In this document: positions 13,958 to 27,325 of the stretch, one piece after another
Layout of the letters: each line of letters opens with the position of its first letter
How positions within the stretch are numbered: the first letter of the stretch is position 1
NCBI RefSeq assembly: GCF_024713945.1
Contig: NC_134684.1
Coordinates: 3,286,001 to 3,350,000, forward strand
Direction: 5' to 3'
Origin: Dermatophagoides farinae
Taxonomy: Eukaryota > Arthropoda > Arachnida > Sarcoptiformes > Pyroglyphidae
DNA: 64,000 bases
Made by a program: the position numbers and the translations under genes
Notes under the pieces: model-generated
Database searches by the model: none
Told to the model about the DNA's origin: nothing
What the model saw: the letters and a program-made list of their open reading frames with translations, nothing else

Positions 13958-16558
13958 AATGGCTAAACATTTAAACAGTACACATCTTTTCATAAAATCA
14001 TAATCAAATGTATAATTTTCACATTATTCTTTTCAATGAATTCAATTACACACATTCATTTGAAACTCAAAAAGCAGAAGCAGCAGCACGGTCAATCTAA
14101 TCACATCATTTAAATTTTTTGTATTATATAAAACAAGAATTCTTATGCAATTCATCAAATATGAATATGAATATAGCCAAATCAGCAGCAGCAGCAACAA
14201 CAGCCATTTTGTTTTTTTCTCTCTGAAACAAAATTTGATTTTTTCTTGTTTTTTTTCTTCTTCTCATCTTACCAACTTTATTCTTTTCTTTCAAATAAAA
14301 CAAACAAGTGATTCTGTTGATTAATTGATTGATTTATATATGTCACTAGCTTTGTATGGCTAAATAAATGATTATATCTTTTCAAATGAATGAAATGTCA
14401 ATTTTGGAAAAAAAAAATTTTTTCCATATCTCGATATATATGTAATATATACGCTCAGGCATGACAATAGTATTCGTTTGTAATATTTGGTTTTTATTTA
14501 TATCTGGAATGTGGATTTATTTTATTATTTATACTATTGCAATCAATCAAATGATAATAACATAATAGTAATAATAATAATGATCAAAATCAATGAGCTA
14601 AACATGGTAACCGGGTTGATGTTAACTTTTTATTGATTATTACGATGATATTGTTTTCGATAATGGTTGCCATGGGTGGTGGTTTGCCAACATTGCCAAC
14701 GATGATAACGACACCTGAAATTTTCAAAATGTTTTTTTTTTTGTTTGTTTATTATAACCATCATTTTGTGTTTTATTGTAGAAAAAAAAATCAAATCGAT
14801 TGAATGAATCATCCAATATGGATGCATTGAATTTGCAATGACGACAATGCAGATGATGATGATGATGATGATGATGGTGAAAAACATTCGAAATGAGGAC
14901 AACATTCTAGGCTGTCAATTTTTTTTTTCGTTTAGTCATTGTTGATTGTCATTAGATAATTTAGTACGAAAAAAATACTAACAAAACAATTTCGTTGTAA
15001 TGTGGATGGACAGAACCAAAAATGAATAAAAAACTCTTTTCCACCAATTCTTGACGAATACAATATGATTACCAATTATATTATATATGGGGGACATGCG
15101 AATATCGATATATTCCGTATTGACCTAGATTTCTTCAATCGTTTTCATTATATTTGATTGCTATTTCCTGCATCGATAATCATGTCAATGTTATGGTTTA
15201 TTTTAGGATCTATATGTATGTATGCTTTAATCGGATTTAATCATTATGGGCTATAGACTTGGGTCTAAAAACATTGCTGCACGCAATGACCATAATTGGT
15301 TATTATAACATGATTAAAATTGACATAAGTAACAAATATTCTTGCACGAGGATCTGGTGACTTAAATTTTTTCTCTAATATCAATGAATGATGATGATTC
15401 AACCATTCATTCATTCATTTGTCATTTTTTTCAGTGGTTCCAAAATAATTTATCATGCATGAAATCATTGTTTTTAACTTGAGAAAAGGGCAAAACCTTG
15501 AATTTATTATCATGTTATTAATAGCAATGACTTTGATGATTGTTTCACGTGCAATGCAATTGATTACGTGCACGATGAATGAATGAATGAATAGTGCCTG
15601 ATGATTTCATCTTTTGATGTTAATATGGACAATCTTATCAATAAGATAAGAAAGCAATCAACTAACGTGTCATCCGTGTTTGTTAATAGGATTTCATCAA
15701 ACCCACTCAATGTTAATGATGATGATGTATTATAATGCTTAATATTAAATACTGATTGCAAATTAAACATTTCCGGTGATTATTCACAGTTTTCAATGTT
15801 ATACTATTTGATTGAATTAAATCAATCAACTAATGCATGAAGAAATTCAACACAGGTTAACATTAACATTAACTAACGCTATATCGCACACAATGGTAGA
15901 GGGTGTGGTTCACATCATTATTACTAATAGCTTATGGTTCTTGTTTTCTTAAAACATTCAACATTCTGGTTGGATAACGTCAGGTTTGTTGTTCACAACA
16001 ACCAACAACAACAACTCCTCATGATGATGTTTGTCCAATACATTCACATTAAACCTTGGAAAACGATGTATGTAGAATGATGTTTATAATAATGATAATA
16101 ATCATCATCATCATGTATAATGGTAGTAGTATACACATTCCTCAATAGAAATTTATATATCCAAATCAAAAAATAAAAGAGTCGACTACATTGAAAGAGT
16201 CGTCGCCATAGTTTAGCCTGTTGGGCTGGTTTTGATTCATGGTTGGTTTTTTTTTTTTTTTTTTTTTTTGATTTCATTGGTTCTGATGTTAGTCATTCAT
16301 TCGATCGAATGAGACTCTACTACATGGTTAAATTATTTAATAACAAACGATTCATATTCGATATATTGTTGTTTCGAGCACATTTTCAATCATTAAGTAA
16401 ACATCATTTCAGCCATAATTAAACGTCCACCAACCATACACCGTATTACAACCATCGTCTTTTTTGTTGGATTGTGATTATATATTCGAAATCCACACCC
16501 ATTTTATTGTTAATATTTTTCGGTAATCAACAACGAAAATCAAAAAAAAAGAACAAAA
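13958..16558. other. Non-coding interval: UBR4 3' UTR and intergenic DNA
   Basis: No supported gene. The first part should be the UBR4 3' UTR, with AATAAA at 14294 and 14363. The rest is AT-rich with ATG/ATC triplet runs, a 23-nt T run at 16247-16269 and a GATA-type inverted repeat near 15632-15650. The short open frames here are low-complexity and show no family resemblance. The last roughly 100 bases should hold the leader of the first PMP3 gene. Confidence 0.6.
14363..14368 (+). terminator. Polyadenylation signal AATAAA, UBR4
   Basis: AATAAA about 400 nt after the UBR4 stop; a second copy at 14294-14299 may be used instead. Confidence 0.4.
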
Positions 16559-16732
16559 ATGCCTTTCACCTGTACGGATATTTGTAAAATAATTTTGGCA
16601 ATCATATTTCCACCAATCGGTGTATTTTTGGAACGAGGATGTGGTGCCGATCTTATTATCAACATTGCCCTCACCATTCTGGGTTTTATACCCGGAATCA
16701 TCCACGCCCTTTATATTATATTTAAATATTAA
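16559..16732 (+). CDS. PMP3/UPF0057 family membrane micro-protein, copy 1
   Basis: A 57-residue, single-exon protein of the PMP3 (plasma membrane proteolipid 3, RCI2/UPF0057) family. It begins MPFTCTDICKIILAIIFPP and has two hydrophobic helices (about residues 8-25 and 31-54) joined by the family-typical short loop with ERGC and DLIINI. Family members are small plasma-membrane proteins linked in fungi and plants to membrane potential and salt or cold stress; the role in animals is poorly defined. The ATG at 16559 gives the usual family length. It is 48/57 identical to the second copy 1.1 kb downstream on the same strand, so the two are tandem duplicates. AATAAA motifs at 17024 and 17043 give it its own 3' end. 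Confidence 0.93.
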   Translation: MPFTCTDICKIILAIIFPPIGVFLERGCGADLIINIALTILGFIPGIIHALYIIFKY

Positions 16733-17023
16733 CACATTCAAAATGAAGTGAAGATGAGAAAAAAATGAATTCCGTTAGCTATTCAATCATCGATTGATTC
16801 GCCTTGAACATCGTTATCATCATTTTGATTTTGAAAAAAAAATCCGTCAAAAAAATTCAATTCAATTCATTTTTCTTTTCTTTCTTTATTTTCCATCATC
16901 GATCGCCACAATGTAATCAAAAAAAAAAATTCAATGTGTTCACTTTCAATTAAATTCTTGCTGTTATTTTATCTTTTTCTGGTTTTTGTTATTCATCATC
17001 AAAATGTATAGAAAAAAAAATAC

Positions 17024-17029
17024 AATAAA
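17024..17029 (+). terminator. Polyadenylation signal, PMP3 copy 1
   Basis: AATAAA about 290 nt after the stop; another copy at 17043-17048. Confidence 0.4.
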
Positions 17030-17462
17030 AATCGTCATAACAAATAAATGTTCGAATTGAAATTTTCTTTTTCAGATCACATCTATTGCCATCTGTCGAG
17101 TATTTTTGACAGCATACCATTTTTTGGGTTTCAAAAAAAAAAAAAAAATTTTCGAAGTATTTAAATCTTTCAAAGTAGAAATTAGAACAAATGAAAATGA
17201 AACGGACAAATTTCTTTTCTTGAAAAAAAAGTCATTCGGTTGATTTGTTTTTCCATTTTTTTTCAAAGCATTATTGCAAAAGAAAAAAACAACTTTGTAA
17301 ATCTTTGCAATTGCCTTTTTTTTACCTGTATACCCAAAAAAAAAATATAGTCCTTCAATAACAGCAACAACAACAATTGTGTTTTAAATCATCTGATTCA
17401 AGGTAATATCTGTCTATTGAAAGTGAAATTACACAAAAAAAAATTATCTTCAATCATATTTG

Positions 17463-17463
<1 letters not shown>

Positions 17464-17492
<29 letters not shown>
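17464..17492. repeat. (TG)n microsatellite
   Basis: About 14 uninterrupted TG units between the PMP3 copies. Confidence 0.95.
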
Positions 17493-17496
<4 letters not shown>

Positions 17497-17863
17497 TGCG
17501 ACAATCAAACAAATATAAAAAAATTTCTCAAATCATTGAAATTGAAAGTTAAAACGAGCACTTAGAGACTGTTATATTGTTGCATCGATATTATCATCAT
17601 CATCATCCCCATCATTCAATTGTCGGTGAAAAAAGGAGGATTTCTGGTTTGTGTATCGACTCATAACTGCATATTACCGTTTTTTAATCGAATCGTTTCT
17701 TTTTGGGCGTCGTTAATCCATCCATACATCGATCAATAAAGGTCTATTTAATATAAGTAGATTCGTTTCATCCATTCATTTGTTATCCATCGACTATTTG
17801 GATCACATATTACAAGATTTTGTTGTTTGTTTTTTTACCAAATTTTTACCAAAATACGAAACA

Positions 17864-18037
17864 ATGCCGTTCACTTGTTCCGATATCTGTAAAATTATTC
17901 TGGCCATTATTTTACCACCATTGGGTGTTCTATTTGAACGTGGATGTTCGGCCGATCTTATCATCAATATTGCATTAACTATTCTTGGTTATATACCAGG
18001 TATCATACATGCATTGTATATCATTTGCATATATTAG
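17864..18037 (+). CDS. PMP3/UPF0057 family membrane micro-protein, copy 2
   Basis: A second 57-residue PMP3/UPF0057 protein starting MPFTCSDICKIILAIILPP. The frame stays open upstream to 17780, but that 28-residue extension has no family counterpart, and the ATG at 17864 matches copy 1 residue for residue in start and length. It differs from copy 1 at nine positions: six swaps among similar residues (T6S, F17L, I20L, F23L, L24F, F43Y), G29S, and two at the tail (F55C, K56I). The DNA has diverged more at third positions, so both copies appear to be under protein-level constraint. AATAAA at 18067 lies 30 nt after the stop. Confidence 0.93.
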   Translation: MPFTCSDICKIILAIILPPLGVLFERGCSADLIINIALTILGYIPGIIHALYIICIY

Positions 18038-18844
18038 CCTTTATGCCAATTCTATAGAATTTTCTGAATAAAAAAAAAATTTTTATTATTATTGTTTGTT
18101 TGTTGTTTTCTTATTTGAATTCGAAATCGAGAAACTTTTTTTTCTTTTTTGATTCAATATCAACCAGATGGCGCATTCGTGATGAGATTGGTTGGCTTTC
18201 TAGTATTTTCTTAACGGCGACTGATGGTAAACAGATAATTTTTTTTTTCGTTGCTTTTGATTTCGATATAGCTTCTGACAAATAATAAAAAAAATATCGA
18301 TTGGCAACAGTTTTTTTTTGGCTGTCATCGAAACTGTTGACGAATAATTTGTTTCTTAATTTTGTCTACAAAATACAATCTTCAAACAACCGTTTCTTGA
18401 GTTATAATACCGGTAGTTTTTTTTTATTCATTGATTCTAATCATCATCATCATCACATTTATAGTGATAACAATAGTGTATCGTCAATGACAATATAACT
18501 AAACCATAACCATATTGGATTAAATATCATCATCATATACAAAGGTTATCATTAAGTTTGTTTTTTTTATATATCGATATTGTTTTCATATTCTATATCT
18601 ATTTGTAGTGATTGTCATAAAGTTATTATCACTCATAATTGATATCGATTTACCAATCATTTATTTGATTCGATTTTAAACATTGTCATTATATTGGTAG
18701 GTGTTTCTTCATAACATAATATTCGATTCAAACTGTTTCTCGTATGTCGTTGCTAATTTTTTTTTCTTGATTTCTTTCCCATTCGATGCTGTGGATCAGA
18801 TTCATATCCTTGAATATAATTGATTGAATTTCAATCATTCAACC
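18038..18844. other. Intergenic interval before the CUB/LDLa gene
   Basis: No supported gene. It holds the PMP3 copy 2 terminator, T-rich tracts, and presumably the promoter and leader of the next gene; no clear TATA element stands out. Confidence 0.55.
18067..18072 (+). terminator. Polyadenylation signal, PMP3 copy 2
   Basis: AATAAA 30 nt after the stop, followed by an A run and a TTATT-rich stretch. Confidence 0.5.
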
Positions 18845-21800
18845 ATGGCCATGAAATTGTTCAATATCATCACATGGTCATTTTTCATCTGTTTTGGTTT
18901 GTATAAACATATTGGATTCTGATTCTTTTGGCAATAATTATTGTTTTATTAATAGTATTTCAATACAGATCATGTTTTGCTGATGAACAGAATTTTTGCG
19001 ATCTAAGTACATCGTATAAAAGTGATTCCTTAAATCTTAATAATCAGACCGGTTATCTATATTTAAATGTAATCAATTGGAATGCTAAGAACCGGACAAA
19101 ATGTCTTTGGATAATCGATATACCGATTTCTCGGAAAACAATTGACCTTTCTCGAGTTGTATTGTCATCAAAAGATAACATCACCATTACAGCTATGCTC
19201 GAAACGAACAAGACATCAACGATTTACACCATTTATGACAATCATAAGCATACAAAGATTTCATCTGGCCTATTATTTGTCGATCAATATGATAAATTGA
19301 ACATTACTCTTGATTTGGATCCACAACATTCGACATTCAACCGAGCATTTCAAATAATTTTATACATTAATTATTCAGATGTTTATTTAATGAGAGACAG
19401 TGGATCATTGTCATTTCCAATCAATCAAGGTTTAACATCCGTTATTGACTCGAAATTTATGCTCCTACCCAGTCCTCAATATTCTGAACGATTGATTATA
19501 TTAACATTTGCCAAAAATTCCACTACAAACTTCAAGATGGATGGCCAACAATATAATCAGACAAACCTTCCGGATATTTACATGGCCAAAATTGATGGTA
19601 TCAAATTTGAATTGAATAAATTCAATGTTACCCTTAATGAATCTATTGAAATCAATTATTGGCTTGTTACAGCAAGTTGTAGTAAAGAGATAGAATTGAA
19701 TGATAAAAATCCTTCATCTTCAATCATTTATCCGAATGAACAAGATCGCCAAGATCAATCATTAACATCAATGGTTTGTGCACAAATATTTACTAACAAT
19801 GTTGATAAATATTATGAAATAATGATCACGGACGAGACTACCATGTTACCGAATCCAGGTGATGTAATAACCGTATATAGCTTACCGAAAATGGAAGTCA
19901 TACAAACAATTCAATCATTGTTTATTCCTTTGTTGAAAACTATCAATACATTTTTGGAATATAAAAAAATTTTAATCATCTATGATTCACCATATTCAAA
20001 TCATCCCGTCACTAAGACGATTCCAGTTGAATTGGCACTAACCAATAACATGTCATTTATATTGAATACTCTATCCTCCAATCAAGAAATCAATGTTGAA
20101 AAAACTAATGAAGAAACAAAATTCATCTACAACATTTATTCGGCGCCTGGTAAAAATTTAATCGTGTACATTGATCCAAAGGAAAAACTTGATGATAATA
20201 AGATGAAGATTGCTATCTACAATACAGATATTCATGGTCCAACAATAAAACCATTGGTATTGTTAGATCAATTCAATGTATTACCTTCAGCAATTGCTGT
20301 GGATAAAACCGAAATGCGTATCGAAATTTGGGGAAAATTGTCAAAAATCAAATTCACCATTAAACATGTTGATGATAAAGATTGTCAAACGGTTTCCAGT
20401 TATAATTCTACTTTTCAAGTTTCAAGTAATCGTAATTGTTCTTGGTTTATTCCACGTGATGATTCCAACCAAGACCACACTGTATTGAGTGCAAATTCAT
20501 TGACGTTACCGAAAGGTTCATCGCTACATGTAACACGTTTGGCTGCAAAAAGTACAACACAAATTCTTCAAGGTCCGAAACATGAATCATATCTTGCCGA
20601 TTTTATAATGCCATCTTCTTATGATTACTTAATTGAATTTATTGTTGATGAAAACAATAAGGATAAAGATACTAATATTTTCATTGCGAAAAAAGCTTAC
20701 CTTTTACATTACAACAACACAATCATCGAAGATCAGCATAAATTTTCTGTCAAATCGATCAATTATCCTGGATTATATCCGATTGGATTTGAACAAGATT
20801 TGATGATTCCTAATAAAGATCAATATGTTTTGATTACGGTTAATGATATTCAATTATACGGTATAGTAAATAAAGACAATAATTATATATACTAATACTA
20901 ATATATTATCATTTTAGATCATCATTTCTTGTCACTAACTGCAAAAGATTTGAGCAGAAATTTTACCAACGATGTCGATATTAAAATGTTACCTGATTAT
21001 GTTGCATATTCAGATTTGGCCGTCGCATTCAATACGAATAATTCTCTACTTTTTGGTAATTCTGATCGAGGATTCGATATCGAGATGACTTTTTTCGGTT
21101 GTGGCGATATTATTGATTTGAGTAAGACAAATACTTTGAAATTCAATTCAAGCTCATCGAATTATCATTCAAATCCAATTTGTATCTGGCAAATCATGAA
21201 TTCAAAGTCCAATGGTCATCTAGCTGAAACTATATTGAATTTCAACATTTTAATGGCTAGTACTTTAGCAGAAAACGAAGCTAATCTCACGATTTATGAT
21301 TCAATTAGCCTTAGAAATTCTAGCATACATCGTGCATTGTGCAATGAAACCAATGGCGATTGTTTGACTGGTAATACTGTGAAAAGTCACTATCAAGGAT
21401 CGATTGGATCGGCTTTTATTGTTTATGACTTTTCAAAATCATTAACAACAAAGAAAAATTTTTCATTTGAAATAACCATCGAATCTTCTAGTAAGTATAA
21501 ATTGAATGAATTTGTCTAATAGTTTTAATATAATATAACTTTATTATTATTCTAAATTCTAGAATGTACAAACACTAAATATAATTTAAGCATCTGTTCT
21601 AATGGTGAACGATGTATAACGGAACTTATGGCCTGTAATGGCCAGAATGATTGTGGTGATTGGTCAGATGAACTTCATTGTAACACTACATTTATTCCGC
21701 CAAAGCCAAATGGTGGTGGAAGTGGTGGTATGTTTTTATTTGAATTCATGTGTTTGTGTGTGTGTGTGTGTTAAATCTTGTCGGCTTTGGCTTTTTTTTT

Positions 21801-22492
21801 AAAAAAAAAATTATTTTCTATAACTGAGTCCTCTGTACTTTGTTGCAATGTTTGTTGAAATGTTGGTTTTTATTTTCTGAAAATTCAAATATTTTTTATC
21901 TGCATTTTTTTTCATGACCCTTTCAAATCCCAATCGCACCCACTATATAAAAACCATATTCCATTAATATATTTCACTATTATTATGACCAAATCATTAT
22001 AGTTAGCTGGGCTTTTGCCATTCTGGTTCTAATGCCTATTAGTGCAATTATCGCTATATTCGGATACATTTATTGCCGACCATTCATAATGAGATTTGTT
22101 TCTCATGGATCATACATGAGATTAAGTGATTCAATATGAATTCAATCAAAGAAGAAGAATATTTATTTTTGCCCTGTGCATTTATTATTCTGTAAGCATG
22201 TGTTATTATAACACCCATTGTTTATTATTTTTTTTTTTCTAGCCAAGCCACATGTGAAACACATCCACATTATGATCAATGTCATTTTTTTTTTTTTTTT
22301 TTTTGAATCTAATTTATACGATTTTGTTTTTTTTTCTTAACTATAGTAAGCATTTGGGTCGTTTTATTCATCCTGATGCCTTTGGGTGCCATACTTGGTA
22401 TATTAGGTTATATCTATCTACCACGATTATTAATGAATGTACGTCATGGTCGATATTCAGAATTTCGTTCAGATATGTCTGAAGTATCATAA
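18845..22492 (+). CDS. Type I membrane protein with CUB-like regions, LDLa module and alternative TM/tail exons
   Basis: Exons: 18845-18896, 18956-20860, 20918-21490, 21563-21727, then either 22003-22139 or 22347-22492. Every intron is phase 1, as in shuffled extracellular modules. The ATG at 18845 is chosen because joining exon 1 to 18956 creates a signal peptide (MAMKLFNIITWSFFICF..., cleavage likely after SCFA, residue 26). The ectodomain has about 870 residues with many N-glycosylation sequons. CUB-like blocks with Cys and C-W-I patterns begin near residue 31, within exon 2 at CQTVSSYNST, and in exon 3 at FFGCGDIIDL. Exon 4 is a class A LDL-receptor module (residues 845-883, CNGQNDCGDWSDELHC). 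The last exon gives one transmembrane helix and a short tail, for 943 or 946 residues. Ligand and family name are unknown; a cell-surface receptor or scavenger role is inference. Confidence 0.8.
22003..22191 (+). other. Alternative exon 5a of the CUB/LDLa protein (TM helix and tail, own stop)
   Basis: After a TATAG acceptor it codes VSWAFAILVLMPIS..., one transmembrane helix, and a tail ending LSDSI with TGA at 22137-22139. A GTAAGC donor at 22192 would let it act as a cassette exon spliced to 22347. There is no AATAAA before 22347, so transcripts using it probably share the downstream polyadenylation site. Confidence 0.7.
22347..22492 (+). other. Alternative exon 5b of the CUB/LDLa protein (TM helix and tail)
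   Basis: After a CTATAG acceptor preceded by a T-rich tract it codes VSIWVVLFILMPLG..., one transmembrane helix, and a longer tail ending SEVS. Same phase 1 entry as exon 5a and clearly homologous to it (shared LMP, AI and GYIY positions). AATAAA follows at 22615. Confidence 0.75.
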
Positions 22493-22614
22493 TTAATCAT
22501 TCAAAAATTTTGTTAATGGTCAATATTAAAATTGTAAAACTAAAAAAGTCATACAATCAAACGTATTCCATCCAAAATATGTCTACACACACACAGATAC
22601 ACACTCTTGATGGT

Positions 22615-22620
22615 AATAAA
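22615..22620 (+). terminator. Polyadenylation signal, CUB/LDLa gene
   Basis: AATAAA 123 nt after the exon 5b stop; the only good candidate after either terminal exon. Confidence 0.5.
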
Positions 22621-23095
22621 ATCTTTGCTTTCATATTTCTGAATTTATTTCATTATTGATTGATATATTAAGAAATGAATTTTCTTCTGTTATTTATTTA
22701 TTAACATTTGATAAAAAAAAAATTTAATAATTTTTCCACAAAATATTATTCATCATTCATCAGGCACGTTTGAATCAATATAAAAATGATGATAATTTGA
22801 TTCGATTAGTAGTACGCACACACTGAAATAAATAATTGAAATAACTTAACATTGATCACGAATAATGATAACTGAAGGAATGAATGGCTATTGAATATTT
22901 ACTAAATATTATCATTGATAATTAGATTGTCATCGATTTGTTTTTAAAAAAAAACAAAATCAAGATTCTATTCATAATTTGTTTAGCCGTTGATAATTTT
23001 TTTTTTTGTTAATTGAATTGGATTTCAATACAAAGATATTGTTTACCGGCTAATGAAACCATATTATAGAAAACATTTCAATTCAATTCGATAGA

Positions 23096-23104
23096 TATAA
23101 AAAG
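23096..23104 (+). promoter_or_regulatory. Probable TATA box of the LPGLG-repeat gene
   Basis: TATAAAAAG lies 84 nt upstream of the ATG at 23180, leaving a leader of roughly 50 nt if transcription starts about 30 nt downstream. A strong TATA element fits a highly expressed secreted protein. Confidence 0.45.
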
Positions 23105-23179
23105 AGATTTTTTTTATTGCAATAATCATCGTTTTATTTCATTTCATTTCAAAATCATAACTTCAAAAACTAATCAACA

Positions 23180-23687
23180 ATGAAATTTATTTTTTTCGTT
23201 TCGTTTTTAGGTAAGTTATGATTTTTTTTTGCCGCAACTTTATATATAATTTTTTTCCAAAATATTTTTTCTGAAAATTTTCCATATAGTATTTGGAATC
23301 GCCAATATTATAGCAGCTGAAGATGTTGCCCAACCCAATCAAAGACTCTTAGATCCATTGCTCCCAGGAGTCGGATTGCCAGGACTAGGAGCTGGATTAC
23401 CGGGCCTTGGATTACCAGGACTTGGTGTCGGATTGCCGGGACTAGGAGCTGGATTACCGGGCCTTGGCTTGCCTGGTCTTGGTGTCGGATTGCCGGGCCT
23501 TGGCTTGCCTGGTCTTGGTGTCGGATTGCCGGGACTTGCAGCTGGATTACCGGGCCTTGGCTTGCCTGGTCTTGGTGTCGGATTGCCGGGACTTGCAGCT
23601 GGATTGCCGGGCCTTGGCTTGCCTGGTCTTGGTTTGCCTGGAGTTGTGGATCCAATCTTAAGAGAAGAAAAAACAGAATCCGCTTAG
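23180..23687 (+). CDS. Small secreted LPGLG-repeat protein
   Basis: A 142-residue protein from two exons (23180-23210 and 23290-23687; 79-nt phase 1 intron with GTAAGT donor). Exon 1 plus the start of exon 2 makes a signal peptide (MKFIFFVSFLVFGIANIIAA, cleavage likely before EDVAQ). After a short linker (QRLLDPLLPG) it is almost wholly built of a 19-residue unit, roughly GLPGLGAGLPGLGLPGLGV, present about five times with one unit shortened to 12 residues. The tail (VVDPILREEKTESA) is acidic and non-repetitive. There are no Cys residues. It resembles elastin-like or structural extracellular proteins in composition; a role in cuticle, silk or mucus-like secretion is inference. No family was recognised. 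Two AATAAA motifs follow at 23759-23768. Confidence 0.85.
23352..23645 (+). repeat. 57-bp tandem repeat inside the LPGLG protein
   Basis: About five imperfect 57-bp units (one with a 21-bp deletion), each coding three LPGL blocks. Neighbouring units differ mainly at third positions (for example CCGGGCCTT against CCAGGACTT) and by GLGAG/GLAAG variants, so the array grew by unit duplication. GC content is well above the surroundings because of Gly and Pro codons. Confidence 0.9.
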
Positions 23688-23758
23688 TTATAATGAAAAA
23701 TAATATTCAATTATTGATGGCGATTGATATTTTTTTTGTTTGTTTGTTGACGACGAAT

Positions 23759-23768
23759 AATAAATAAA
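23759..23768 (+). terminator. Double polyadenylation signal, LPGLG gene
   Basis: Overlapping AATAAATAAA about 72 nt after the stop. Confidence 0.5.
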
Positions 23769-23904
23769 AAATTTCAAATTCATTTACTCTTGTGATATTT
23801 TAAAATTTCTGCACTGGATTATATGAATGGACATCGGGAATTTGATTTTGATGAAATCAAATCACATGTGTATTTTTTCATTTATATTTCTGATTCAAAA
23901 TAAT

Positions 23905-24899
23905 ATGGCCAATGATATTAAATCAAAATCTTGCGCCTGCAAAGGTATTCGAACTTGTTCAAAATGCGAACAATACCAACCACCTAAATCAAGTGATCGA
24001 AATTCGCATATTGAAAAAACCTATGTCCATTGTTGGCGATGTGGCAATCGGGCTTATGATTCTGAATTTTTCGACAAACATTTTGAGGATCATGAAAAAA
24101 CCAACAAATTCGATAATAATGTCCCTATGGTTGAAATCGATGGCATATTCTTGCAGACCGATGTGATTACTGATGATGAAGAAGTTCAACTTATCCGACA
24201 GGTTGATTCATTCGAATGGGTAGATTCGCAATCAGGTCGTCGTAAACAAGATTTTGGACCAAAAATAAATTTCAAAAAACAAAAAATTAACTTCACACCA
24301 TTCGAAGGGATGCCAAAACTTGATGTTGAACTATTGAATACAATTCGCAGTGAACGTCTTACATCACATGACGATTGGCATAGATTTTCATCGCTTCCAT
24401 TTGATCAATATTCAGATTATACGATATTGAATCGTTTTCACTCGATCGAAATTTGTCATCTTGAATATTGGTATGAAAAACATGATATTTTCAAATTTTT
24501 ATATACTCAAATTATCATTAATTTCAAAACAGTCCAGAACGTGGATCATCAATCGATCCTCATTTCGATGATAACTGGATTTGGGGTGAACGCTTGGTCA
24601 CATTAAATCTGGCTTCAACCACTGCCATTACATTGACATTTCCAGAACTATCCTCATCACCTGAATATTGTATTCGCATTGTATGTCCAAGAAAATCTCT
24701 TCTAGTACTGTATGGTGATGCACGATATAAATTTCATCATTCGATTCAAAGAACTGATATAAATCATCGACGATTGGCCATAACATTTCGTGAATTAGCC
24801 TATTCATTTTTTCAACAATCATATCTAAACAAAGATATGCGACATTTACAAATCCGTGATGAATTTCTTAATCGTTCGAAAAAATTTATTATCAAATAA
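23905..24899 (+). CDS. ALKBH4: Alpha-ketoglutarate-dependent dioxygenase ALKBH4
   Basis: Fe(II)/2-oxoglutarate dioxygenase of the AlkB family; ALKBH4 in mammals is reported to act on actin methyl-lysine and on DNA. Exons are 23905-24470 and 24533-24899 (62-nt phase 2 intron), giving 310 residues against about 302 in human. The ALKBH4 N-terminal signature CACKGIRTCSKC is at residues 10-21, and the family-specific SQSGRRKQDFGPK follows. Splicing restores EYCPERGSSIDPHFDDNW; H199 and D201 are iron ligands. The distal His is near 258 (HHSIQR) and the 2-oxoglutarate-binding RRLAITFREL near 268-277. All catalytic residues are present. Residues 43-63 add a perfect C2H2 zinc-finger spacing. The frame extends upstream to 23827, but the Met at 23905 matches the family's short N terminus. 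Confidence 0.93.
24885..24890 (-). terminator. Polyadenylation signal for BRF1 inside the ALKBH4 coding end
   Basis: TTTATT on + reads AATAAA on the minus strand, about 105 nt after the BRF1 stop. It lies within the last codons of ALKBH4, so the two transcripts would overlap tail to tail. Confidence 0.35.
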
Positions 24900-24900
24900 A
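24895..24900 (+). terminator. Polyadenylation signal overlapping the ALKBH4 stop codon
   Basis: AATAAA overlaps the TAA at 24897-24899. No other AATAAA occurs before the BRF1 stop at 24994. Confidence 0.35.
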
Positions 24901-24993
24901 CAAAATAATGCATTCAGATAAAAAAAAAATCTAAAATTACAATATAAACAAATGAAATGGTTTGAGTTCATTGACATTGAATATTTTTCCTGG

Positions 24994-27325
24994 TTAAAAA
25001 CCACAGTCTTCAAAATCATCTGCATATCCGCTTTCGCCTTGTAAGCTATATTTTTGTTTAATTTTCTGAAATTCATCATCATCATCGTCGTCATCAACAT
25101 TGTCATCATCAACATTGTCATCGTCACCGAAATAATCAACATCATCGTCATCATCAATTGAATTGATATTGGTTGATGGTTTTTGTATTGGCATTTTTAT
25201 TTTCTTATTACTAACATCGTTATGATCTTCATCATCAATGTCAGTTGGTTGAATATCAATAACTTTATCTTTCTGATTGATCGATGAATTTGTTTCTTGG
25301 TGATCATTTTTATCATCTGATATTGAAGCAACATTTTCTTTTGGTGAGTATGATGATGTTTCAATCGCTGGAACTTTGGCATATGAATGATATAACGATA
25401 CCAGAAGTGCAGTGTCTTCCTTATCAGATTGAGAATCAACCACTTCGTTAGTGTTCGAATGATTCGGCATAACTGTTATGTCACTAGTGCACGGTTTTGA
25501 ATGAGAACTTTGATCCGATTCTTCATTGAATAATTCTTTGAGATTAAGATTTGAATTTAATTGGATAGATTTGGCTTTAGCAGCAGCTTTAACAGCTTCA
25601 CTAGCACTGGTTGCTGTTGACGTTTCAACTTTGTCCATTTTCCGTCGTTTTTTCTTCTGTAAAATAGAAAAAAAAATATTTCATAAACGATATCAAAAGT
25701 TGACAAGAAAAACTTACTGTTTTGCCATTTTGTTCTTTTTCATTATCCTCTTGTGTTTCTTGCTGTTTTCTTTTTAATAATTCTTGGGCTTCTTTTTCCA
25801 AAAATTCTCGATTCAACATTGTCCATTCCATTTGTCGCTGACCAATTTCTGTTTGATCATCAATAATATAGGCATTTATTTCATCATCATCAATATCTTC
25901 ATCAAGACCTTTTTCTAATAGATCTTGATAATTATTCGTTTCCTCTCTAATTGTTTCACGTCTCAATAGGCCAAGACTTTCGGCTGAAGGCCTAAGATTG
26001 GCCCAATATTCAATCTCTTCATTTGATGGATTACCATGATCTTCAAAATGCATTTCTTGAGTCATTTTCGTTATATTACCATCGATTGATAAGATATTAT
26101 GATCAATAATTGTTTCCTTAATAATTGAAGTTTCATCATCTTTGAGTTTATCTCCATCATCTTGAAATGTGAATATATCTTTCAGGAACTTGGCATACAT
26201 TCCACGTAATTTTACTCTGGATTCTTTTAAATGTTCTTCGATAATATCCTGATATTTTTCCGCTTTTTTCAGATTAGCTTCGATATCATCCTTTAGGGTT
26301 GCGGATAATTTGAATGCAGGAGGATCTTCCTCTTCAGTAAGAGAATGATCGTTTAGACATGAATTCTTTATATGTTAATAAACTTGATGGCGTATCAACA
26401 AATTCGTTAATACGTTTACGTATGGTTGACTCACAAACTTTAGCTATGGATATGATGTCTTTGAAAGAACATCGAACATTATTGATACGGGCGGCGACGA
26501 GTACAGCGGCTGCACATACACCAGAAGGTCTACGACCAAAATGAATCCAATCACGTTTCATTCGTTGTACGATTCTATTGGACGTTTCACGAATGGATGA
26601 CGCTGAGCGCTTTACCTGCAATAAAGTTCGATCGCCTAATAATAAGTTCATTAGAGATTTTTCGATAATATAAACAATAATAATAATATGCAACTAACCA
26701 AGATTGAGCATATCAACGAATCGGACAATATATTCACTTGGATCAACTGATTTTATATTAAACCGCAATAAACGAATAATTTGAAAATAATAGCGACCAA
26801 TATCGTAGACATTTGCTTCGGCAACATCGCTAATATCCAATAGGATCACATTAGCACCTTCAGTACGAACAGCAATATATAGACATGCAGCCAATACAAT
26901 ATTCAAGCGTCGGCCATTCATATATTTTTTAATTAATAATTGATGATAAAATCCACTGGATATCTGTGCAAATGATCCACTAATATATAATTTGTCACAA
27001 TATCGTCGTAGAATGGTTTTAGCATTATCCACCGATGCTAAACATTGTCCATGACTTGAAAATTTACTGTTTACAAGAAAGGTAAAGAATATAATTAATC
27101 ATTCTGTATTCCACCTGAAACATACCTGTTGACGAATCCTTTTTCTACACTATAAGTGGATCCAACGGCTGAATATCTTCCACGATCATCTTCACGATAT
27201 TGTATTTCATCGGTAAAAGCACCCAATTCAAAACATTCACCACAACCAGTACAAAACATACCGGACATTTTCTTGTCGTGAACAATTTCACCTTTATTAC
27301 AAAGATGACAAATTGTAGCAGACAT
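24994..27325 (-). CDS. BRF1: TFIIIB subunit BRF1, with an apparent +1 frameshift
   Basis: RNA polymerase III initiation factor subunit that recruits Pol III to tRNA and 5S genes. Exons on the minus strand: 27325-27126, 27066-26699, 26635-25718, 25656-24994; introns are 59-63 nt. A TFIIB-type zinc ribbon lies at residues 6-28 (CHLC ... CTGC). Two cyclin repeats follow: the first around [15 protein letters not shown] to VDMLNLG, the second around [14 protein letters not shown] to [14 protein letters not shown]. Next come EEEDPPAF and the BRF1 homology block ([16 protein letters not shown]). A basic KKKRRK and an acidic Asp-rich C-terminal tail end the protein, about 715 residues in all. Within exon 3 the frame breaks near 26351-26354: upstream reads ...YKEFMSK, downstream [11 protein letters not shown], needing removal of one base. 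Both sides are conserved, so this is a sequencing or assembly indel or a recent lesion. Confidence 0.92.
26351..26360 (-). other. Frameshift site in BRF1
   Basis: On the minus strand the frame reads ATG TCT AAA C, and the conserved downstream frame then resumes at GAT CAT TCT. One extra base sits in or next to the AAA run (TTT at 26352-26354 on +). Left as is, the upstream frame ends at the TGA at 26334-26336. Confidence 0.75.

Follow-up and report, generated by a model that had tools for sequence, protein, structure and literature searches.

Tandem-duplicated terminal exons as candidate alternative membrane anchors of a CUB-like/LDLa protein gene in the dust mite Dermatophagoides farinae

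Introduction

Several described genes vary the membrane anchor or the cytoplasmic end that follows a given ectodomain. In Drosophila Dscam1, the alternative transmembrane exons 17.1 and 17.2 provide one ectodomain with two anchors, and the accounts available associate the choice between them with dendritic or axonal location (PMC2566808, PMC5465998). Drosophila Neto-alpha and Neto-beta show a CUB, LDLa and transmembrane order and vary at their cytoplasmic ends by alternative exon; as described, the isoforms have their transmembrane exons in common and carry distinct tails of 206 and 351 residues (PMC4408064). CULD, also of the CUB/LDLa type and with one predicted transmembrane motif, acts in endocytic trafficking, and the available text on it does not mention alternative anchors (PMC4732287). 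Surveyed C-terminal exon swaps come, as far as the source describes them, from human, fly and nematode genes (PMC9741552), and in human tandem duplicated exon substitutions it is likewise neighbouring homologous exons that are swapped.

The locus described here, contained in a window of 64,000 nucleotides (the whole stretch of D. farinae DNA that was analysed), combines features of these systems. Its exons 5a and 5b resemble Dscam1 exon 17 as two candidate anchors for one ectodomain, although they are terminal and carry stop codons, whereas the Dscam1 exons are internal, belong to an immunoglobulin-type protein and are followed by cytoplasmic exons 19 and 23 (PMC5465998). The domain order recalls Neto, but in the mite gene the helix itself is duplicated, the tails are about 20 residues long and homologous, and the CUB part is unrecognised by Pfam. 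As in tandem duplicated exon substitutions, 5a and 5b are adjacent homologous coding exons of the same phase with an interchangeable junction; the human cases rest on annotated GENCODE transcripts, whereas the mite pair is known from genome sequence alone. With Dscam1 exon 17, Neto-alpha/beta and many human C-terminal exon swaps as precedents, the type of arrangement appears to be already known and this instance of it new. No paper on the gene was found among the best literature matches, which is not a claim that it is unpublished.

Gene model and neighbouring features

Allergen frames elsewhere in the genome fit its assignment to D. farinae: one of the Blo-t-5 family matches Mite allergen Der f 21 at 112 of 113 aligned residues and one of group 2 matches Der f 2 at 107 of 108, and another group 2-like frame resembles both Der p 2 and Der f 2 but is neither. 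The exon model (Table 1) was built from open frames and splice consensus, with first, second and third introns of 59, 57 and 72 bases. It predicts a protein of 943 (5a) or 946 (5b) residues, probably a type I membrane protein with a signal-like start and a divergent CUB-like plus LDLa ectodomain of about 850 residues. The part coded by exons 2 and 3 contains 21 N-glycosylation sequons. Retention of intron 4 would add a short stretch (21728-21785) with several cysteines and a stop, a possible anchor-less form.

Table 1. Coordinates of the predicted gene and associated elements, numbered within the window
Feature	Position	Strand	Description
Exon 1	18845..18896	+	Start codon, signal-like hydrophobic stretch; frame continues into exon 2
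Exon 2	18956..20860	+	Bulk of ectodomain; Cys-x-Trp motifs; without recognised family
Exon 3	20918..21490	+	Last CUB-like stretch
Exon 4	21563..21727	+	LDL receptor class A module, Gly-rich juxtamembrane linker, phase-1 donor at 21727
Intron preceding 5a	21728..22002	+	Acceptor T runs of at most 2 in last 30 bases
Terminal coding exon 5a	22003..22139	+	Helix, then tail ending LSDSI; stop TGA 22137-22139
Spacer, 5a stop to GTAAGC donor	22140..22191	+	52 bases
Candidate 3' UTR intron	22192..22242	+	51 bases, GTAAGC ... T-run CTAG; predicted
Terminal coding exon 5b	22347..22492	+	Helix, then tail ending SEVS; 9-T run at acceptor
ATTAAA, possible poly(A) signal	22525..22530	+	
AATAAA, likely shared poly(A) signal	22615..22620	+	

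Just upstream of the gene lies a Pmp3 family proteolipid (17864-18034, + strand; PF01679, E 6.8e-25, profile positions 1-49 of 49). Downstream, an open frame at 23250-23687 (+ strand) consists mostly of L-P-G-L-G type repeats in tandem units of 15 to 93 bases; Pfam, searched to E 0.001, assigns it to no family, and immediately before it is a start with a signal-like sequence. Further on, 24522-24896 (+ strand) matches a 2OG-Fe(II) oxygenase (E 7.6e-5; 23.4 bits, below the curated cut-off of 31.2), and the Cys-rich stretch ahead of this match recalls ALKBH4.

The ectodomain

The original prediction named a CUB/LDLa surface protein, of which profile searches recovered the LDLa half. The module in exon 4 matches PF00057 (E 3.9e-10 with the exon alone, E 3.5e-8 within the 946-residue protein) and adjoins the membrane helix, which comes next. 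Pfam returned no CUB match, whether the whole protein was searched (E up to 1) or exons 2 and 3 separately (E up to 10). A genome-wide CUB search (80 candidates scored) listed 63 matches, of which none lies on this gene's contig. Against a home-made profile of seven CUB domains from the same genome (an eighth, L007, was dropped, being identical to L006), exon 3 scored 9.0 bits and the two top shuffles among its 300 (292 listed) 9.1 and 8.2; exon 2 scored 3.3 bits and the top shuffle among its 300 (235 listed) 9.1. A hint of CUB ancestry nevertheless comes from the Cys-x-Trp motif, a CUB habit that is also present in the domains of this genome used for the profile: it occurs at 3 of 11 cysteines, and none of 20000 shuffles had as many. 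The ectodomain would be best named CUB-like, not CUB.

Modelled alone with AlphaFold, exon 3 has predominantly strands and a mean pLDDT of 41.5, too low for a fold search. Four of the cysteines that open CUB-like pairs are spaced 220-235 residues apart. Six pairwise segment comparisons gave no clear internal repeat: for each of the two best, 19 of 400 shuffles did as well, and for the remaining comparisons the number was 66 to 244. A genome search with the ectodomain (E up to 0.1) returned 12 matches, four of them the gene itself and eight confined to query residues 819-890, in the neighbourhood of the LDLa module; a full-length paralogue was not seen. Viral contigs scanned with exon 2 yielded three pattern matches, none confirmed. 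The gene thus appears to be without recognised relatives in the collections searched.

Homology of the two terminal exons

At 21727 exon 4 stops one base into a codon, and the acceptor AGs of 5a and 5b stand just before 22003 and 22347. Either join yields Val-Ser followed by an unbroken helix and tail: the peptide after the exon 4 join is VSWAFAILVLMPISAIIAIFGYIYCRPFIMRFVSHGSYMRLSDSI for 5a and VSIWVVLFILMPLGAILGILGYIYLPRLLMNVRHGRYSEFRSDMSEVS for 5b, whose stop ends at 22492. The joins stay open, as expected of the two successive terminal exons that had been predicted, both phase-1-compatible with 21727, both starting Val-Ser and each coding one helix.

Alignment of the two peptides spans 38 columns from Val-Ser to the tail tyrosine, with one gap, 17 identities and a BLOSUM62 local score of 77. 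This score was reached by none of 5000 whole shuffles (maximum 52) and by none of 5000 block shuffles in which helix and tail were randomised separately and Val-Ser was retained (maximum 56). Over the 62-Mb genome, the 5a query found itself and 5b (E 8.4e-4, 42% identity) and the 5b query itself and 5a (E 6.2e-4, 42% identity), with nothing else up to E 10 in either case. A six-frame scan of 16000-27000 revealed no third copy: outside 5a and 5b the best site scored 40, less than either shuffle maximum. The proposed local exon duplication is thereby strengthened, each exon being the other's sole partner in the genome, and an origin of 5a and 5b by local tandem duplication can be regarded as well supported by their sequences.

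The LMP, AI and GYIY positions that had been picked out as shared are all present in the alignment, together with a further common motif that had not been named, V-x-H-G-x-Y-x-x-[LF]. The best 19-residue hydropathy values are 2.51 and 2.54 for the two exons, and both helices carry small residues four apart, SAIIA and GAILG, which sets an SxxxA pattern against GxxxG, a spacing that we take to be a helix packing pattern. The tail motif is presumably a tyrosine sorting motif of the YxxPhi kind. The description of the tails as different was too strong because they have this motif in common; the last residues do differ (LSDSI vs SEVS). Different cytoplasmic signals, also proposed, are half right: the tyrosine motif is the same in both and the differences lie mainly in the last residues. 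The SDSI end of 5a may presumably be read as a class III PDZ ligand, a reading that depends on a short pattern. At the level of sequence, the proposed coupling of one ectodomain to two anchors is well supported.

Selection on the two copies

Over 44 codons aligned end to end (17 identities), 5a and 5b differ at 64 of 132 nucleotides (0.485), and the differences are only mildly skewed among the three codon positions (21, 14 and 29). Neutral decay of one copy was simulated without indels and with an assumed base composition, at four settings from each exon and with 1500 runs per setting. At a mean difference of 0.456, an open frame persisted in 6.2% of the runs started from 5a and 5.2% of those started from 5b, and not one of 1500 runs from either exon kept the frame, at least 17 identities and the helix together. 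The same combination survived in 0.2% and 0.4% of runs at mean differences of 0.398 and 0.397, and in 0.9% and 0.7% at 0.326 and 0.325. At 0.238 (0.4 events per site), the case in which about half of the divergence falls on the decaying copy, the frame remained open in 18.7% (5a) and 14.3% (5b), and the full combination, helix included, was retained in 2.7% and 3.9%, so neutrality is excluded only to a moderate degree. By this simple neutral simulation, both frames are unlikely to have survived by chance, and purifying selection on both copies is favoured as the better reading, short of proof.

Splice sites, 3' end and competing readings

The acceptors of the gene differ in their T runs and pyrimidine counts. 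Within the last 30 bases, the longest T run is 2 at 5a and 9 at 5b (4, 4 and 3 at the other three acceptors), and pyrimidines occupy 11 of 20 positions at 5a and 16 at 5b (11, 12 and 14 at the others). Since the 5a count equals that of the exon 2 acceptor, calling the 5a acceptor weak rests on its short T runs; it falls at the low end of the gene's range, within it, and looks weaker than the 5b acceptor. A search from 22003 to 23200 for 13 types of poly(A) hexamer (2 canonical, 11 variants) found none from 22003 to 22431, that is, none in or just behind 5a, and then in order AATGAA at 22432 (a variant, inside 5b), ATTAAA at 22525, ACTAAA at 22539 and AATAAA at 22615. Given the gap up to 22431, 5a probably uses the 3' end of 5b.

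Pairing tests addressed a possible RNA structure around the exon pair. The front of intron 4 against the 5a-5b interval reached -42.5 kcal/mol, with 10 of 200 shuffles equally low; one further long-range test was equalled or undercut by 196 of 200 shuffles, and folding of the whole region gave a z of -0.66, with 4 of 20 shuffles equally low. A TG repeat in intron 4 (21746-21771) and a CA repeat behind 5b (22585-22610), which flank both exons, are 81% complementary over 26 bases; pairing of intron 4 with the stretch behind 5b did not reach significance, 42 of 200 shuffles being equally low. A looping structure of the Dscam type that would guide exon choice thus receives no significant support from these tests.

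The GTAAGC donor predicted behind the 5a stop was located at 22192; it had been taken to suggest that 5a is a skippable cassette. In that arrangement, joins 21727-22003 and 22191-22347 would make 5b always the last exon, serving as 3' UTR when 5a is included, with the same two proteins as products. The donor itself, the 9-T run at the 5b acceptor and the lack of a poly(A) hexamer between 5a and 5b would all suit a cassette. However, the T-run CTAG at 22242 is nearer and gives the same donor a 51-base intron, close in size to the gene's other introns (57, 59 and 72). The pattern GTAAG, 20-75 bases, at least 9 pyrimidines and AG has this pair as its single occurrence on the + strand of the window and none on the - strand, a post-hoc count, the pattern having been written after the site was seen, when a stricter first version had missed 22192-22242; it also misses the gene's own AT-rich introns. 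A looser version with a GT[AG] donor occurs at 10 places on the + strand and 2 on the - strand. On its exon side the donor has a poor sequence, TCT. The junction would fall 52 bases past the 5a stop, a borderline distance under the nonsense-mediated decay rule, and this last point applies equally to the 51-base intron. A cassette is accordingly given a low probability: the donor exists, but its fit to a 51-base intron and the absence of a poly(A) hexamer from 22003 to 22431 make a cassette spliced to 5b less likely than a common terminal exon of which 5a forms the front and which is entered through alternative acceptors. A third acceptor at 22243, spliced straight from 21727, was considered and set aside; its tail would carry a poly-Phe run.

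That 5a is a decaying or unused copy, with splicing to 5b only, is a reading we hold to be improbable. It would account for the short T runs at the 5a acceptor and the missing poly(A) hexamer of its own, and the most lenient simulation does leave an open frame in 14-19% of runs; yet frame, phase, helix, proline, GYIY and tail motif all persist at 48% nucleotide difference. The weak acceptor may also mean that 5a is rarely used. Hydrophobic helices are generally similar in composition, and the two helices might have converged on it without any duplication. We consider this extremely improbable, as block shuffles that keep helix composition stop at 56 against 77, the similarity extends into the tail, and 5a and 5b are each other's only genome match.

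Discussion

The reading that we prefer, and consider fairly probable as a whole, is a tandem-duplicated last exon of which both copies code and between which the choice is made by alternative acceptors. The last exon of this dust mite gene would have been duplicated in tandem and both copies would have stayed coding; the use of both exons, like the age of the duplication, is what we infer from open frames, homology and phase. Exon 4 would be joined to 5a, or to 5b by skipping 5a, linking one ectodomain to homologous anchors. The 5a mRNA would probably continue to the shared poly(A) site, with 5b remaining in its 3' UTR, and might lose a 51-base 3' UTR intron. As the 5a acceptor looks weaker than that of 5b, 5b is probably the default form and 5a the regulated one.

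Trafficking is the likeliest theme common to both forms, by analogy, because the YxxPhi-type motif is common to the tails and CULD has an endocytic role. The shared tyrosine motif suggests that both forms would be internalised via clathrin adaptors, and helix packing (SxxxA vs GxxxG) together with the tail ends would tune oligomerisation or sorting. A more specific version, to which we attach little credence, is a selected anchor switch: with a single-copy ectodomain, a common internalisation motif, differing helix packing and tail end, and a 5a message lowered by the 3' UTR intron 52 bases past the stop, the choice of acceptor would set receptor oligomerisation and surface life.

Should both exons be used, the pair would offer a compact system, provided by nature, in which the contributions of a membrane helix and a tail of 20 residues can be compared under a constant ectodomain. 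Among the studied proteins of the CUB/LDLa type, Neto acts on receptor clustering and CULD on endocytic turnover. The known C-terminal exon swaps would then also gain a chelicerate example, and one from a medically relevant mite.
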